DNA from: Marinobacterium litorale DSM 23545
Lineage (GTDB): Bacteria; Pseudomonadota; Gammaproteobacteria; Pseudomonadales; Balneatricaceae
Assembly (NCBI RefSeq): GCF_000428985.1
Contig: NZ_KE386828.1
Coordinates: forward strand, 1-64,000
Direction: 5' to 3'
DNA: 64,000 nt
Both the position numbers and the translations under genes were made by a program. Shown here one piece after another: positions 1,161 to 48,729 of the stretch. The notes beneath the pieces were generated by a model. The model saw only the letters and a list, made by a program, of their open reading frames with translations. It did no database searches and had not been told where the DNA came from. Position 1 is the first letter of the stretch. Every line of letters begins with the position of its first letter.

Positions 1161-2765
1161 ATGAGTTCATCCCCTGATCTGACCCAACTGACACCCGAAC
1201 AGCTGCGCCAGTTAGCCGCCGATCTGATCACGCGTGCCGAGCAGCAGGATCAGGTGATCCAAGCACAGGGTCAAGCGCTTCAACAGCGGGACCAGGTCAT
1301 CCAGGCGCGCGATCAAAGTATCCAGCAGCGAGACCTGAAGATCGGGCAGCTCACGCATGAGGTCGCCCTGTTGAAGCGGCACAAGTACGGCCAGCGCAGT
1401 GAGCATCTCAACGTGCTTCAGATCAGCCTGCTGGACGAGGTTGTGGATGCCGATATCGCTGGGATCGAGACTGAGCTTGAGCAGCTGAAAACCCCAGAGG
1501 CCATACCCTCCGAAAAACGTCAGCCCAAGCGCTTACCCTTACCGCCAGAGCTGCCTCGTACCGAGATCCATCATGAGCCGGATAACACCGCGTGTGCCTG
1601 TGGTTGTCAGCTCACGCGTATCGGTGAAGACGTCAGCGAGAGACTCGACTACACACCCGGCGTGTTCACCGTTGAACGCCACATACGGGGCAAGTGGGTC
1701 TGCGATCATTGTGAGACGCTCACCCAGGCGCCTGTGGCCGCACAGGTCATCGACAAGGGTATCCCGACGAGCGGCCTGCTGGCCCAGGTGCTAATCGCCA
1801 AGTACGCCGACCATCTGCCGCTGTACCGCCAGGAACAGATCTTCGCCCGGGCCGGTGTGCCGATCGCCCGCTCCACACTGGCGGAATGGGTCTGCATCTG
1901 CGGGGTACAGCTGCAGTCACTGGTCGACGCTCTGCGTGAAACGTTGCTGAGCGAACCTGTTCTGCATGCCGACGAGACGCCGGTGCCGATGTTGTCACCC
2001 GGCAAGAAGAAAACCCATAAAGCCTACATCTGGGCCTATGCCAGCACCCCGTTCTCTGACCTGAACGCGGTGATCTACCACTTCACTCCCGGACGGAGCG
2101 GACAGCACGCCCGAGATATGTTCGGAGAGTGGAGCGGCAAGCTGGTCTGCGATGACTACAGCGGATATAAGGCCAGCTTCGCCCAAGGGGTTATCGAGAT
2201 CGGCTGTATGGCGCATGCCCGTCGCAAGTTCGTGGAACTGGAGGTCAGCGGTAAAAGTCAGATCGCCGGCCAGGCCGTCGAATACATCCGCTAACTCTAT
2301 GAGATCGAGCGTGAACTGGCACCGCTCTCAAGTGAGGCGCGGCACGAGATCCGACAAAGCCGATCCAAACCGATAGTGGACGGACTCCATCAATGGATGC
2401 AGGCGCAACGCACGAAAGTGCCGGACGGCACGGCCACGGCCAAAGCGCTGGACTACAGCCTTAAACGCTGGGCGGCGCTGGCGCGTTACCTGGAGGATGG
2501 GGCGGTGCCGATCGACAATAACCGGGTGGAGAACCTGATCCGACCCTGGGCACTAGGCCGGAAAAACTGGCTGTTCTCTGGATCCTTGCGCAGTGGCCAG
2601 CGGGCGGCAAACGTAATGAGCCTGATCCAGTCAGCAAAACTGAATGGACATGAGCCTTATGCGTATCTAAAAGACGTACTGATGCGACTGCCCACGCAAA
2701 AAGCCAGCGCGATCGATGAACTGCTGCCGCAGCACTGGTCGCCTTGCAGCGGAAAGGATCATTAG
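1161..2765 (+). pseudogene. tnpC: IS66 transposase TnpC, interrupted by an in-frame stop
   Basis: TnpC is the DDE transposase of IS66. The N-terminus (about residues 5-75) is a long glutamine-rich coiled coil ending RHKYGQRSEHL. Next come a zinc-finger-like region with CACGC and CDHC pairs, and the catalytic core with HADETPV (first Asp) and CDDYSGY (second Asp). At 2292-2294 a TAA stop replaces one codon of the family sequence before LYEIERELAP. The same frame then continues without shift to 2765, carrying the third catalytic residue in VPIDNNRVENLIRPWALGRK. A single C-to-T change from CAA would create this stop. The truncated 377-residue product lacks the catalytic Glu and should be inactive. 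All other family features are well preserved, so the lesion looks recent. Confidence 0.92.
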
Positions 2766-2769
2766 ACGA

Positions 2770-2920
2770 TGGGGAGTTCCGCTGCGTCCTTGCAGCCTCC
2801 GACACATCCTTGAAAGGTGACAGAGGCTCTCATCCTGAGAGCATCGGCAGTCCTTGCCCTCTGTCAGCCACTACCCTACGGGTGCTGGTGTTCAGTTGCA
2901 CGGACCGATCCGGTGTGAGT
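2770..2920 (-). ncRNA. Candidate CsrB/RsmY-like RNA inside the IS66 element
   Basis: Read on the minus strand, this noncoding stretch has repeated GGA motifs in hairpin loops, the hallmark of RNAs that titrate CsrA/RsmA. A 9-bp stem, TGACAGAGG with CCTCTGTCA (2818-2866), encloses two arms. One is GCTCTC-AGGAT-GAGAGC (2826-2842, read in reverse) and the other GGCA-AGGAC-TGCC (2847-2859). A further hairpin is GCTGC-AAGGAC-GCAGC (2781-2796), and the single-stranded segment between them contains CAAGGATG. The motif forms closely resemble the repeats of enterobacterial CsrB. No clear promoter or terminator was found, so ends are approximate. It overlaps no gene and lies between the tnpC stop and the right inverted repeat. 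Confidence 0.45.
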
Positions 2921-2986: not shown

Positions 2987-3061
2987 CGCTAGAAACGTAA
3001 TCTACGGATTAACGTCGGTCTGCCGTGGCAGTTGGAAACAGTCAGGCGGGGAATACAGACA

Positions 3062-3250
3062 AAGGAAAAATGACAAGGAGGGGCCTGGACACATCCGTGA
3101 AGCAGGCCCCTGTGGGCTTCCTTGCCAACCTCACGTCATTCCTTGATGTGAGGGAGGGGTTAGCTCTCCAGCTATTCATCACGCGTCCTTGCGTCCCTCA
3201 AGGCCTATACTCCAGATTTTGAGGCGGAGTTCCTATAGGAAAAACTCCTA
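3062..3250 (-). ncRNA. Candidate Rsm/Csr-type small RNA downstream of mobA
   Basis: On the minus strand this 190-nt intergenic stretch carries about eight GGA motifs, most of them in the loops of compact hairpins: ACGC-AAGGAC-GCGT (3181-3194), TAGCT-GGAG-AGCTA (3161-3174), a stem of CCTCAC with GTGAGG plus TCA/TGA closing an AGGAA loop (3129-3153), and GGC-AAGGAA-GCC (3115-3126). The last is an outer 9-bp stem, AGGGGCCTG with CAGGCCCCT (3079-3111), enclosing CAC-GGAT-GTG. This is the architecture of RsmX/Y/Z and CsrB RNAs, which bind CsrA/RsmA. The terminal GC-rich stem is followed 9 nt later by TTTTT (3066-3070), an imperfect terminator. A palindrome (3275-3290) lies upstream. No protein frame fits this stretch. 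Exact ends are unknown. Confidence 0.6.
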
Positions 3251-3274
3251 GATTTTGCGATGTGATTGATAAAA

Positions 3275-3290
3275 ATTGACTTGCGTCAAT
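3275..3290 (-). promoter_or_regulatory. Perfect palindrome overlapping the mobA stop
   Basis: ATTGAC-GCAA-GTCAAT (minus strand) is a perfect 6+4+6 palindrome. It sits about 40 nt upstream of the densest part of the candidate small RNA, where a regulator-binding site would be expected. Its half-sites resemble those of the FNR/Dnr family (TTGAC-N4-GTCAA) more than the GacA site TGTAAG-N6-CTTACA. The regulator is unknown. Confidence 0.35.
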
Positions 3291-3861
3291 GAGGACCATC
3301 CGACTTGTTGAGTCGGTTGATATTGAACTCTGCGTCATTGGTGATATCGATCGCCTGTGTCTCCGGATAGCTTGCCAACGCTTTCATCACTCTTTGGCTG
3401 TGGGTTATAGCCAGATGTTGTTGGAGAAACTCAGCGAAACCGCGAGGTAGATAAGCGTGAAGAGGATGGTCGTGGTCGGGCGCTCGCAGATAAATCCAGG
3501 CCGTTGGGGTTTGCTCAGCGTGTTCTATGAGCTGCATGACGTGGCTCGCTGTTACGCCGGGAGTGTCGCAAGGGAGAATAATCGTACCTTGATCAGGCAG
3601 TCGGGGTAGCAGTTCTGATAGAGCTTGCAACGGGCCTGGGAAGTCTGTGCTGAGGTCTTGTATGACAGGGAGTCCATATTGGCTGTAGCCTGCCAGGTTG
3701 CGATTGCTGTTTATGAACACTGTTGTGCAATGTGGCTTGAGGGCCTCAAGTGCATACTCGACAAGCGGTTTTCCCTTGTATAAAGCAAGGCCTTTGTCCT
3801 GGCCTCCCATGCGACGGCTCCGCCCACCAGCCAGTACAAGACCTGTATACGTTTTCTTCAT
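3286..3861 (-). CDS. mobA: Molybdenum cofactor guanylyltransferase MobA
   Basis: MobA joins GMP from GTP to molybdenum-molybdopterin to make the MGD cofactor of DMSO reductase-family enzymes, in the cytoplasm. The 191-residue product begins with the nucleotidyltransferase signature LAGGRSRRMGGQDKG (residues 10-24). It also has the metal-binding PCDTP motif and a C-terminal INRLN segment close to that of known MobA proteins. Length matches the family (about 190-200). The ATG at 3861 is preferred to the TTG three bases upstream because AAGAAAGAG lies about 7 nt before it. No other molybdopterin gene is nearby, so it is a single-gene unit. The upstream 300 nt are shared with the divergent small gene at 4159. 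A candidate small RNA follows it on the same strand. Confidence 0.93.
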   Translation of the reverse strand: MKKTYTGLVLAGGRSRRMGGQDKGLALYKGKPLVEYALEALKPHCTTVFINSNRNLAGYSQYGLPVIQDLSTDFPGPLQALSELLPRLPDQGTIILPCDTPGVTASHVMQLIEHAEQTPTAWIYLRAPDHDHPLHAYLPRGFAEFLQQHLAITHSQRVMKALASYPETQAIDITNDAEFNINRLNKSDGPH

Positions 3862-4088
3862 CAATCACTCTTTCTTGGGACAGTCCGTTCCGTATATTCA
3901 GGCCTAAGAGTCAAGGTCGTACAGAATAGCTGTGTATTTCTTCAGTATGCCCAAAGCATGTATCTAGAGTATTGGTATCAATGAGTTAAGGGTCAACATG
4001 GAGGAGTGATCTAAACGTAGATTATTGCAGCCATTGATGTAGTTGATAATGGTTGAATTTAACTCAACATTGGGTGGAGAAAAGGTCG

Positions 4089-45145: not shown

Positions 45146-47800
45146 TTACTCAAGATGCTCCTGTTGAGCCAGACGCTGGAGGCGCGAGCAAGCGTTCCAG
45201 AGTGTACGCATATCGCCCTTGCGTGCCGCCTCATGCAGTTCAGCTGTGCAGCTTTCCAGCACTGGCATATCGTACAGCCCGGCCATCCCCAACAGCTGGT
45301 GAGCCAGGCTGCGGATCTGTTTCAGGTCCTTTTGCCAGACGGCTTTGAGTACGCCTTCGGCAAGACGCTGTACCTCATCATGAAGAAGCTCGGGGCTCGT
45401 CAGTTGTTTAAGGCTGGGTTGAGCGCCGGCGGCGGGTTTCGGCGCCTCCAGCGAGTGGCCCAGTTTGCGTTCACACAGATGAAGCAGAGTACGCATCAAT
45501 TCGTTGGTATTGACCGGTTTCAGCAATAGATCATTGATGCCGGCTGCCACCAGTGCACGATGTTCATGGGGTACCACATTGGCTGTCAGCGCGATGATGG
45601 GGAGTTCCTTGTCCTGCTCACGAACCCGGTGTGTGGCCTGGATGCCGTCCATCTCCGGCATATGGACATCCATCAAGATCAGGTCAGGGCGTTTGTCGAT
45701 CAGATGATTGAGGACCTCCTGGCCGCTGCGCGCTTCGTCAACGCGGGCGCCCAGATCTTCCAGCAGTCGGCGGATCAGAAGGCGGTTGAAATCGTTGTCC
45801 TCGGCAATCAGTATCTCCAGTGGATAGGGCAGCTGGTTGGTGCTGACCGGTTGGGGTTTGCTGGCGTTGGTGGCGAATGGCAGCCCCAGCAGGTCATAAA
45901 GCTCACCCGGTCGAGGCGGCTTGGCCACCAGGTTCAGGTCGTCACCTTGAAGACGCATGGGCGTGCGCCCGGGAACCATGAGGACCAGGGGCGCGTTGCT
46001 TTGTGCCCGCACGCGGTCACACAGCGCCTGAACCGAGCGTGGCGAGCAGTCCTGGGGGCTAACGGCGGCGATCAGCATGCGTGGGCGTTTGGTGGGAGCC
46101 AGCGTGCAGATCTCCTCCAGGCGTCGGATCAGGCGGATGTCAGCCGCCAGTGGTCGCAGTAAACGAAGTAGCGCGGTCCGGCTACTGGTGCAGGGTTCAT
46201 ACAGCACGATCTCATGCCGCCAGGAGGTTTCCACACACACCGGTTTTGGCGATTCGGCCGGAAGCTTCAGAGGCAACTCGACCCGGACCTCGGTTCCGCT
46301 CTTCTCGACGCTGTCCAGGGTGATACTGCCCCCCATCAGCTCGGTCAGACGGTGAGCGATGACCAGCCCCAGTCCTGAACCGCCAAAGCGTCGGCTGATC
46401 GACACATCGCCCTGGGTAAATGCGCTGAACAACTGACCGACCCGCTCCGCAGGAATGCCGATGCCGGTGTCGCGCACGCGAATCAGCAGGCGAGGTTCAA
46501 GCTCCGGGGCCCGAAGCACTTCGACGATCAACGCGACTTCACCATGTTCGGTGAATTTGATGGCATTGCCCACCAGGTTGTTGAGGACCTGGCACAGGCG
46601 CGTGGGGTCACCCAGAACCCGCAGAGGCATGTGGGTTGGCAGATCGGCGATCAGCTCCAGTTGCTTGCGTCCTGCGGCCGGCGATTGAGCCTCTATCACA
46701 TCGAACAGGCTCTGCTCGAGATCGAACGGAATGGCCTCGATCTCGATCGCCTCCGATTCAAGACGGGAGTAGTCCAGAATATCGTCAATGATTGTCAGTA
46801 GCAGCGCGGAGGTGCGTGTAATGATCTGCAGATACTGGCGTTGCTGTTTGTCGATCCGTGTGTGAGTCAGCAGTTCGGTAAAACCGATCACGGAGGTCAG
46901 TGGGGTGCGTAGCTCATGACTCATGCGGGCAAGAAATTCATCCTTGGCATGGTTGGCTTCATCGGCACGCTGGCGCTCCAGCTGAAGCTCTCGATTGCGT
47001 CGCTCCAGGTGGCGCAGAGTTTGCGTCAGGCGGCGGGTGGAGCTTTCTACCCGATACTCGAACTGTTGGTTGGATTCCTGAACGCGGGCCGCCAGTCGGT
47101 TGATACCGCTGGCGAGGGTGCGTAGCTCTCCGGTATGGCTGACGTCGGCGCGGGCATCCAGTTCACCGCGCTGCAGGCGCTCGATAAGACGTGTTAAGCC
47201 CAGAATAGGATGGGTGATGCGTCGGCCAAAGCGGTTGGCAAGGAATAACGTGATCATCAGGCAGATCAGCGTCAGCCCCACTCCGCGCATCAGGATATCG
47301 CGTTCGCGTTGGATTGTCGGTTGAGCGGAAATAACGACCGCGACCCAGCCCAGGGTTTCTGGCTGGCGGCTTATGGGTAAGAGCTCAGGATTGTCCTGAA
47401 ACGGAATCCGGGCCGGCTCAATGGGCTGAACAAAGCGCCAAGTCCCTTTTTCAAGCCGCGGAGCCTGCTGATCGCGCTGAATCTGAATCTCAAATCGGCT
47501 GCTACGGTAGAGCAGGCGGAAATCCTTGTCGTAAAACAGAACGTCGGCGACCTCATCATCTCGAATCGGACCGCTGCTGAGACTGCGCAGCAGTTCGGTA
47601 TTTCCGCTTAAGACGCCGAATTCGGCGGCAGAGGCGATCAGCCGAGTCATGGCGCTGCCCCGGTCGAGCAGGTTGGTGCGGGTTTCAGCCAGGCGGGTAT
47701 AGGTGAAATAGCTGCCGAGTATCAGGGCGAGCAAGGTCATGGGCAGCAATGAAAGCGCCATAACCCGAAATCGGATGCTCATGGGCCAGGGATTGATCAT
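45146..47800 (-). CDS. GacS/BarA-like hybrid sensor kinase
   Basis: An 884-residue inner-membrane phosphorelay kinase. It has a first membrane segment (about residues 11-30, ALSLLPMTLLALILGSYF, in GacS/BarA style), a periplasmic domain of about 140 residues, a second membrane segment and a HAMP domain. These are followed by a coiled coil, a HisKA domain with MSHELRTPL (His295) and an HATPase with DTGIGIP and GGSGLGL. Next comes a degenerate receiver-like region, then a true receiver with ILMDVHMPEMDG (Asp711), and a C-terminal Hpt domain with AHQLLGMAG (His834). It overlaps the upstream periplasmic binding-protein gene by ATGA, so the two are co-translated. No response regulator is adjacent, so phosphate probably goes to an unlinked partner such as a GacA/UvrY type; that is inferred. 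Confidence 0.9.
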   Translation of the reverse strand: MINPWPMSIRFRVMALSLLPMTLLALILGSYFTYTRLAETRTNLLDRGSAMTRLIASAAEFGVLSGNTELLRSLSSGPIRDDEVADVLFYDKDFRLLYRSSRFEIQIQRDQQAPRLEKGTWRFVQPIEPARIPFQDNPELLPISRQPETLGWVAVVISAQPTIQRERDILMRGVGLTLICLMITLFLANRFGRRITHPILGLTRLIERLQRGELDARADVSHTGELRTLASGINRLAARVQESNQQFEYRVESSTRRLTQTLRHLERRNRELQLERQRADEANHAKDEFLARMSHELRTPLTSVIGFTELLTHTRIDKQQRQYLQIITRTSALLLTIIDDILDYSRLESEAIEIEAIPFDLEQSLFDVIEAQSPAAGRKQLELIADLPTHMPLRVLGDPTRLCQVLNNLVGNAIKFTEHGEVALIVEVLRAPELEPRLLIRVRDTGIGIPAERVGQLFSAFTQGDVSISRRFGGSGLGLVIAHRLTELMGGSITLDSVEKSGTEVRVELPLKLPAESPKPVCVETSWRHEIVLYEPCTSSRTALLRLLRPLAADIRLIRRLEEICTLAPTKRPRMLIAAVSPQDCSPRSVQALCDRVRAQSNAPLVLMVPGRTPMRLQGDDLNLVAKPPRPGELYDLLGLPFATNASKPQPVSTNQLPYPLEILIAEDNDFNRLLIRRLLEDLGARVDEARSGQEVLNHLIDKRPDLILMDVHMPEMDGIQATHRVREQDKELPIIALTANVVPHEHRALVAAGINDLLLKPVNTNELMRTLLHLCERKLGHSLEAPKPAAGAQPSLKQLTSPELLHDEVQRLAEGVLKAVWQKDLKQIRSLAHQLLGMAGLYDMPVLESCTAELHEAARKGDMRTLWNACSRLQRLAQQEHLE

Positions 47801-48729
47801 CGTTCCGGCTCTTGAGCTTGCAGCTGAGCCGAGAGGATCTCTGTCGATGGCAGCTGCAACCGCAGGTTGCGGGCGGCGGTTCGGTTGACCGATATCGAGA
47901 ACTGCTCCGGATATTGCGGAGGAGGCAGCTCTGCCGTGGTCTCGGCCAGCGTCAACATTCGGGCGCACTGGCGAGCGATCTGGTCGGGGGTGGAATACAG
48001 TGAGGCAACAGCGCCTGCATCTGCGTAGCTGGCAGAAAAGCCGATGAGTGGTACCTGGCTGCGCAAGGTGATGTAAAGAATCCATTTGGCGGCCGCGCGG
48101 TTAAAGACGGAGCGATCGGGTATGGGTACAAAAAAATCGCTTTGTTCAATAACCGGTGTGAGTGCCTCTACCGGATTATCGTTGGCGCCGAGTCGAGCCA
48201 CCCGCAGCGTCAAACCGGCGTCTGCCGCTGCATTGGCAAAAGCGTCATACTGTCTGCTGCCAGCTTCTCCGACCGCACTGCCCACACTCCGAGCTTGCGG
48301 TCTGATCAGCTTTCCCAGGCGTATCTGGCGGTCAAAAGGTTGATCCAGAAACAGGGCAGACAACCGCTTTTCGGCCAGTAAGCGTTGCCCTTTCTCGGCG
48401 TCGGTAAGCTCATAAAAAGTGGCGGCGGGCAGGTATACGCAGATGAGTCGCTGCTTATCCGTTGCCAGGAAGAGTGCCCGTTCGCAGGCCCGGGTGCCAA
48501 CGGCCATGATCAGCGTTGCCTCCTTGGCGCCGGTCGAGGGCAGAGCCGCCGTTTTTACCGGGCCTGGATAGTGAGTTTCAATCGCGTCCCTGACCGCGGC
48601 GTAACTGGTGCCGGTGTCACTGAGCAGTATCAGCGGTGGCTCGCTTGCATCCGCGCCTGCTATAGGTAACAACAGCAAAAGCAGCATTTGGCGGAGCGTC
48701 CTTAGTACACCAGCCATCCCTGTCGGCAT
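47797..48729 (-). CDS. Orphan periplasmic ABC-type substrate-binding protein
   Basis: A 310-residue exported protein of the ABC_sub_bind type (uncharacterised, COG2984-like). It has a signal peptide (about residues 1-28, with LLLLLLPIAGADA), a Rossmann-like periplasmic binding core, and segments such as LIGFSASYADAGAVASLYSTPDQIARQCARML that fit the family (about residues 225-257). No permease or ATPase gene is present, so it is not a complete transporter. Its genes on either side are a TonB-dependent receptor and a hybrid kinase, so a role in sensing is plausible. The start is uncertain (ATG 48729, or 48717); neither has good spacing from a Shine-Dalgarno. Confidence 0.82.
   Translation of the reverse strand: MPTGMAGVLRTLRQMLLLLLLPIAGADASEPPLILLSDTGTSYAAVRDAIETHYPGPVKTAALPSTGAKEATLIMAVGTRACERALFLATDKQRLICVYLPAATFYELTDAEKGQRLLAEKRLSALFLDQPFDRQIRLGKLIRPQARSVGSAVGEAGSRQYDAFANAAADAGLTLRVARLGANDNPVEALTPVIEQSDFFVPIPDRSVFNRAAAKWILYITLRSQVPLIGFSASYADAGAVASLYSTPDQIARQCARMLTLAETTAELPPPQYPEQFSISVNRTAARNLRLQLPSTEILSAQLQAQEPER

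Follow-up and report, generated by a model that had tools for sequence, protein, structure and literature searches.

How much of a global translational regulator is free in the cell is set by Csr/Rsm RNAs, whose genes are usually regarded as fixed parts of the host. Does a short, GGA-rich stretch of the Marinobacterium litorale DSM 23545 genome encode such an RNA, and is it a fixed gene of this kind? The stretch lies in a window of 64,000 nucleotides (contig C12). A first-pass annotation had proposed a CsrA-titrating small RNA on the minus strand of 3062–3250, a reading now supported by conservation, covariation, GGA loops, a terminator, a shared palindrome, and the presence of csrA in all eight genomes of the genus. 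With a probability of roughly 0.85, positions 3203–3066 (minus strand) constitute a Csr/Rsm-type small RNA gene that is switched by an activator, sequesters CsrA, and is one of several in the genome. At the level of sequence, what is found is a structured RNA that is conserved and presents GGA in loops, a shared palindrome, frequent linkage to rRNA operons, and homologous RNAs within IS66 elements.

The hairpins with GGA loops are present in the letters as first described, and the initial count of about eight GGA motifs compares with nine triplets on the minus strand of 3062–3250. Dinucleotide shuffles contain 5.0 on average, and at least nine occur in 5 of 500. Four of these GGAs sit in loops of the predicted fold, where the shuffle mean is 0.39 and none of 500 shuffles reaches four. 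Among 1826 tiles of 140 nt on both strands, the tile from 3101 (minus) has the most loop GGAs (four). Joint second, with three each, are tile 2751 (minus), covering an RNA inside a neighbouring transposon, and tile 45591 (minus), within a kinase gene. The fold of 3040–3260 has an energy of −80.8 kcal/mol (z −2.9). GGA-rich stretches are not rare in themselves, with at least nine GGA in 36 of 6382 window tiles of 190 nt, but a chance arrangement of GGA hairpins was rejected because no shuffle of the 500 reached the loop count. Covariation in relatives also argues against chance, the probability of which is negligible.

The proposed interval holds only in part. The RNA occupies approximately 3203–3066, whereas the first ~45 nt are promoter, and three of the nine GGAs fall ahead of the conserved RNA. 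The palindrome at 3234–3250, which is kept across copies, has two of these three in or beside it. The RNA proper (3066–3203) has six GGA, a count that is unremarkable alone (52 of 500 shuffles reach it); only loop placement stands out, its four loop GGAs being reached by 0 of 500 shuffles. The parts of the locus are:

3234–3250, minus: palindrome TAGGAGTTTTTCCTATA, candidate activator site common to the family's Csr-like RNAs (alignment, motif scan, control)
3207–3212, minus: predicted −10 region GAGTAT (alignment, pattern scan)
3066–3203, minus: Csr/Rsm-type small RNA, called type A, with a predicted 5' end (7 of 8 genus genomes, covariation, fold energy)
3181–3194, minus: hairpin 1, ACGC-AAGGAC-GCGT (sequence; helix 2 of the covariation analysis, 96.7% of cells paired)
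3161–3174, minus: hairpin 2, TAGCT-GGAG-AGCTA (sequence; helix 3, 94.4% paired)
3129–3153, minus: hairpin 3, CCTCAC-A-TCA-AGGAA-TGA-C-GTGAGG (sequence and fold; helix 4, 92.2% paired)
3115–3126, minus: hairpin 4, GGC-AAGGAA-GCC (sequence and fold; helix 5, 93.6% paired)
3066–3111, minus: terminator stem AGGGGCCTG/CAGGCCCCT with tip CAC-GGAT-GTG, then CCTTGTCA and TTTTT (helices 6–7)

Type A thus begins with a 5' domain in which GAGGG/CCCTC encloses two GGA hairpins, and continues with two more GGA hairpins and a terminator stem that carries GGA at its tip. The hairpins named in the first-pass annotation are all in the sequence, its 9-bp terminal stem being 3111–3103 paired with 3087–3079. The stem has the form of a Rho-independent terminator, with a T-run 8 nt further on in the window and T-runs closer to it in several relatives; a simple scan of the locus listed neither a sigma-70 site nor a terminator. 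In the predicted fold of the window copy, a longer terminator stem takes the place of hairpin 4, the 5' side of which pairs instead with CCTTGTCA, 3' of the terminator stem. Consequently, hairpin 4 and the extended terminator are mutually exclusive within 3066–3126 (minus) in this prediction, and CsrA binding there could affect termination.

Conservation of the RNA is centred on the genus. A BLAST search with 261 bases located a second copy in the same genome, on contig C19 (98%; the RNA itself is identical in sequence), and weaker matches in six other Marinobacterium genomes. In five of these the match extends over 130 nt, in G004 over 23 nt. Seven stretches came out of a pattern scan across named genomes, every one of them from Marinobacterium. 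In the alignment of copies, both the upstream palindrome and the series of hairpins are conserved, and the stems vary while the loop GGA is kept. A covariance model built from five genomes (R1) matches seven of the eight genus genomes, with no more than three matches each; the eighth, G007, has csrA and no R1 match. Across 116 family genomes, R1 matches 16, spanning 5 of 16 genera, and gives no match in the other 100. Stricter filters applied to 293 genomes drawn from the order left two with matches, M. litorale itself and G012 of the same family. A lack of covariance hits in relatives had been named at the outset as an argument against the RNA, and such hits exist in both genus and family.

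Base pairing is supported by the aligned matches themselves. In 41 of them (35 distinct, including third-class RNAs and weak matches), double changes occur at 36 of 38 base pairs, with 334 double-changed cells against 101 in shuffles. Paired cells amount to 93.4%, compared with 66.0% for shuffles and no more than 44.1% after sliding of the partners, although such pair counts lean towards structure because alignments A4 and A8 were fitted to their own models. The 5' side is poorly aligned in weak matches, L047, L048, and L050 among them.

The expectation that the locus would match a known Csr/Rsm model failed: no Rfam 15 family reaches its curated score there, and allowing E values up to 10 brings up no Csr family either. 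Rfam searches of all the RNAs gave no match to CsrB, CsrC, RsmX, RsmY, or RsmZ, only unrelated sub-threshold ones, such as mir-1976 on or near type A. Type A resembles these five RNAs in its GGA hairpins, terminator, upstream palindrome, and sibling copies per genome, and its genome likewise encodes CsrA and a BarA/GacS-like kinase. It is unlike them in the absence of an Rfam 15 covariance match.

Neighbours of the RNA in the window include:

47–162, plus: 5S rRNA, the 3' end of an rRNA operon (Rfam RF00001)
3286–3864, minus: mobA-like gene, upstream of the type A RNA (Pfam NTP_transf_3)

The mobA-like gene, to which the RNA had originally been tied, proves incidental. It was rejected as a conserved partner because the gene ahead of the C19 copy encodes a D-Tyr-tRNA deacylase and other genus copies adjoin rRNA operons. 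Of 15 strong genus matches, 10 have rRNA-operon sequence nearby, recognised by 5S in the window, by L141 in G006:C5, and by 35 nt of trailer only on C19; the remaining five end no more than 450 nt from a contig end. Seven of the 10 rRNA-linked copies are on the operon's strand and downstream of the operon, and three, including the window, are opposite, so the generalisation that RNA and operon invariably converge was rejected. Opposite orientation is found in the window, on C19, in one G003 copy, and in both copies of the single-contig genome G012, which lie ~370 nt from a 5S gene; RNAs so placed need a promoter of their own. At eight loci in other genera, no rRNA sequence was seen in the stretches examined around the matches.

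The closest precedent found for CsrA-linked RNAs at rRNA operons is RrA/RrB/RrF of Escherichia coli. According to the available part of PMC8144298, these small RNAs are near-identical siblings next to 5S genes, lie between two terminators, and are read through from the rRNA promoter. The likeness consists of 5S-adjoining, near-identical copies, with read-through possible at the seven same-strand genus copies. Type A differs in having a conserved palindrome before the RNA, and the window RNA, being on the strand opposite to 5S, is not an RrA/RrB/RrF-like part of the rRNA transcript.

This linkage is also what lends some substance to another reading, in which the conserved RNA is real but is no CsrA sponge, being either an RNA of rRNA flanks with some other function or a base-pairing RNA. 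rRNA-operon sequence beside two-thirds of the strong genus copies, mostly placed where read-through from the rRNA promoter could reach them, would suit it. It is nevertheless very unlikely, since the loop GGA is kept while stem bases change in pairs, every genome of the genus has csrA, a second class of RNA under the same upstream palindrome is still richer in GGA, and the opposite-strand copies require their own promoter.

That palindrome, with the pattern TAGGAN5TCCTATA, is placed 34 nt upstream of GAGGG in the window and in all seven stretches of the pattern scan. Five occur in the M. litorale genome. Two precede type A RNAs (C12 and C19), and two precede RNAs of the second class (C6 and C25), which have a terminator-like stem and contain more GGA than type A, with 11 and 9 in the next 270 nt, respectively. 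The second-class RNAs have no Rfam match at curated score and one below threshold (Ref66 on L100). The fifth palindrome (L101, at C16:65927) stands before a gene for a protein, not for an RNA, and this gene is possibly a further member of a palindrome regulon.

The plain motif is mildly commoner than a reversed control (61 against 42 sites in 27 family genomes), and single sites are therefore weak evidence. Plain counts were dropped after this comparison in favour of a test of downstream GGA. At least seven GGA in the next 270 nt follow 31 of 51 palindromes (the non-duplicate ones among 65 sites that lie within retrieved loci and have a full 270 nt after them) and 5 of 31 reversed-control sites taken from 30 loci (Mann–Whitney p 2.7e-7). 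The sequence of the box rules out identity with the published GacA box of the TGTAAG-N6-CTTACA type and with the published VarA site; the rsmY UAS is TGTAAGCATTCTCTTACA in the available part of PMC4353343, and the VarA comparison rests on that of PMC6262261. No description of TAGGAN5TCCTATA was found in the literature searched, nor was anything that combines Marinobacterium and CsrA.

As first annotated, the window does contain a gene for a kinase of the type that might govern such a box:

45146–48085, minus: BarA/GacS-like hybrid kinase gene (Pfam sCache_4, HAMP, HisKA, HATPase_c, Response_reg)

Its Hpt match (E 6.9e-05, 23.4 bits) is just under the Pfam cut-off of 24.6. A candidate for the regulator is encoded on C25, ~300 nt from the second-class RNA and convergent with it. 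This response regulator has a LuxR/GerE-type domain and is the genome's second-best match to the UvrY model, for which no protein of the genome exceeds the curated cut-off. Of 39 genomes, 28 contain a match to this regulator at E 1e-30. The four family genomes that lack such a match (G010, G014, G015, and G025) have 0, 0, 1, and 0 palindromes, respectively; G008, G011, G020, and G023 have the regulator match but no palindrome, and G004 has two palindromes but only a weak regulator match. The regulator gene was not found at the other palindrome loci searched (L073–L132), and its connection with the palindrome is a lead from sequence.

Together these elements suggest how a CsrA-sequestering type A RNA would operate. 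We infer that it is transcribed, binds CsrA, and is under the control of the BarA/GacS-like kinase. A response regulator downstream of this kinase, most likely the activator, would bind the palindrome at 3234–3250, and transcription would start ~30–35 nt downstream of it. To judge by the architecture, the hairpins would present loop GGA and bind several CsrA dimers, and the sequestration of CsrA would free its target mRNAs. The putative set of Csr-like RNAs in this genome comprises type A in the window and on C19, two RNAs of the second class (C6 and C25), and those of a third class in three IS66 copies.

The third class bears on whether such genes are fixed. A second GGA-hairpin RNA, missed in the first-pass annotation, lies within the neighbouring insertion sequence:

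286–2986, plus: IS66-family element with terminal inverted repeats at 286–310 and 2962–2986 (25 nt) (Pfam domains, repeats)
367–732, plus: tnpA (Pfam HTH_Tnp_1)
806–1063, plus: tnpB, from a mechanical ORF start (Pfam TnpB_IS66)
1161–2765, plus: tnpC with one in-frame stop, in pieces 1161–2294 and 2376–2765 (Pfam DDE_Tnp_IS66 on both)
2779–2865, minus: second Csr-like RNA, called type C, inside IS66 and convergent with tnpC (R1, R3, covariation)

The element resembles other IS66-family insertion sequences in its tnpA, tnpB, and tnpC domains and its GTAA-starting inverted repeats, and 8-bp target duplications, likewise typical, are perfect at both bounds of the elements in two relatives (G076 and G097). 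What distinguishes the elements described here is a gene for a Csr-like RNA, placed between tnpC and their right end. In the window, this end (2986) is also where the match to the C6 copy stops. The tnpC of C6 is interrupted at the same codon as that of the window by a different stop, and that of C19 is intact.

R1 itself reports 2753–2865 (minus) within the element (E 3.9e-05), and type C is present in three IS66 copies of the genome (C12, C19, and C6). Ten of 116 family genomes have matches to a dedicated model, R3, which total 25, and 10 of the 25 adjoin an IS66 transposase, always convergently (three in G000, one each in G076, G109, and G097, and four in G116). Related RNAs occur inside IS66 elements of three other genera. 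Double changes are seen at 15 of 22 type C pairs across 22 distinct rows. The host elements range from close to distant. Measured against the C19 copy, identity is 77% for the tnpC of G097 and 29.6% for the TnpC of the G109 lineage; at 1996 nt, the G076 element is a shorter one. Five elements of G109 and G116 have unlike upstream flanks and become alike from exactly GTAAGCGATCATTC (GTAAACGCTCATTT in one), followed by the palindrome and the RNA. L165, one of these RNAs, contains an N as well as extra bases, and the four G116 elements hit a contig end within tnpC, their far ends not being covered.

Inspection of the flanks revealed no 8-bp duplication around the window or C19 copies, and an rRNA operon lies next to the C6 copy as well; recombination between rRNA operons is therefore the probable route by which the copies spread within this genome. 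Because the neighbouring IS66 brings its own Csr-like RNA, the dosage of the CsrA sponge could shift by transposition or by such recombination.

Would these copies function? They may be passive passengers, host Csr RNA genes caught by chance at the right end and without function there. The palindrome is absent from the M. litorale and G076 elements, whose predicted expression is consequently the least certain, and the corresponding site in G097, though palindrome-like, deviates from the pattern. No R3 match was obtained in a related IS66 of M. ramblicola (G006), where tnpC ends near the right end. Identity between C12 and G097 is lower in the RNA (58.6%) than over 900 nt on the tnpC side (69.2%). 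In a weakly supported tree on alignment A8, the RNA of the G097 element lies near RNAs encoded on the chromosome in the same genus, and those of the other IS elements are placed elsewhere, which weakly suggests more than one capture of the RNA by IS66.

Closer elements speak against mere passengers, as their RNAs are more conserved than the 900 nt on the tnpC side: 97.7% against 87.2% for C19 and G076, 95.4% against 84.9% for C12 and G076, 100% against 94.8% for C12 and C6, and 95.4% against 82.1% for C12 and C19. In the last pair, the stretch from the RNA to the right end is also 95.7% identical, so gene conversion may account for the likeness. The five elements of the G109/G116 lineage, moreover, keep both palindrome and RNA. 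On balance, the passenger explanation is plausible but less likely than not.

Alternatively, the RNA may serve mainly to control its own transposon, as an antisense to tnpC or as a block to transcription from outside. In the G000, G076, G109, and G116 elements, it is convergent with tnpC and ends 15–29 nt from the tnpC match, with no clear terminator seen between the two. However, GGA loops and paired changes are kept, and in G097 a terminator-like stem between RNA and tnpC would stop antisense transcription, making self-control unlikely as the main role.

The balance tips slightly towards a third account, that IS66 transposons of this family carry a working CsrA-sponge gene at the right end, in one lineage under the host's activator box, and that insertions raise its dosage and shift the Csr network. 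A transposon would then manipulate a global regulator through a decoy RNA, and if the copies are expressed, a simple insertion sequence would alter that regulator's free level by copy number alone. The presence of type C within a transposon suggests that mobile elements may pass such sponge RNAs from one bacterium to another.

Neither the window RNA, the IS-borne RNA, nor the right end of the G109 element has a match in PLSDB, and a literature search reaching few subscription papers turned up no Csr-type RNA carried by an insertion sequence. The available parts of PMC8144298, PMC5568370, PMC12594629, PMC9928087, PMC2375449, PMC4353343, PMC9788540, PMC6262261, and PMC11092175 contain no description of an IS66-borne Csr RNA. 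Related phenomena are nonetheless on record, each cited from the part of the source available. RsmQ, a plasmid-encoded Rsm homologue, acts on the host Rsm network (PMC9928087); it is likewise a case of a mobile element interfering with host Csr/Rsm regulation, but through a protein on a conjugative plasmid instead of a sponge RNA on a transposon. The 5'tnpA RNA of IS200 in Salmonella is a regulatory RNA from an insertion sequence that acts on host genes (PMC12594629). It derives from the transposase mRNA, its binding by CsrA is suggested (three GGA), and it has no GGA-hairpin array, unlike type C. In Vibrio, duplicated csrB copies are known (PMC6262261). The RNA family described here has no Rfam match, is found mostly beside rRNA operons, and has relatives that travel in insertion sequences. 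With the box and the covariance models, the Csr circuit of this marine group becomes open to experiment.

Several further features accompany these RNAs. Upstream of both type A copies in M. litorale is a 14-bp palindrome, TTGACGCAAGTCAA over the mobA stop (window 3276–3289, minus) and TTGATCCAGATCAA on C19, which we take to be of the FNR/Anr type; none was seen in the upstream stretches of six other copies. At loci L056, L052, L055, and L057 of genus g11, matches to Csr-like RNAs stand in tandem, two to three of them within ~700 nt. In four relatives, palindrome-preceded, GGA-rich RNAs (L117, L120, L122, and L127) lie near TPP riboswitches at the same locus.
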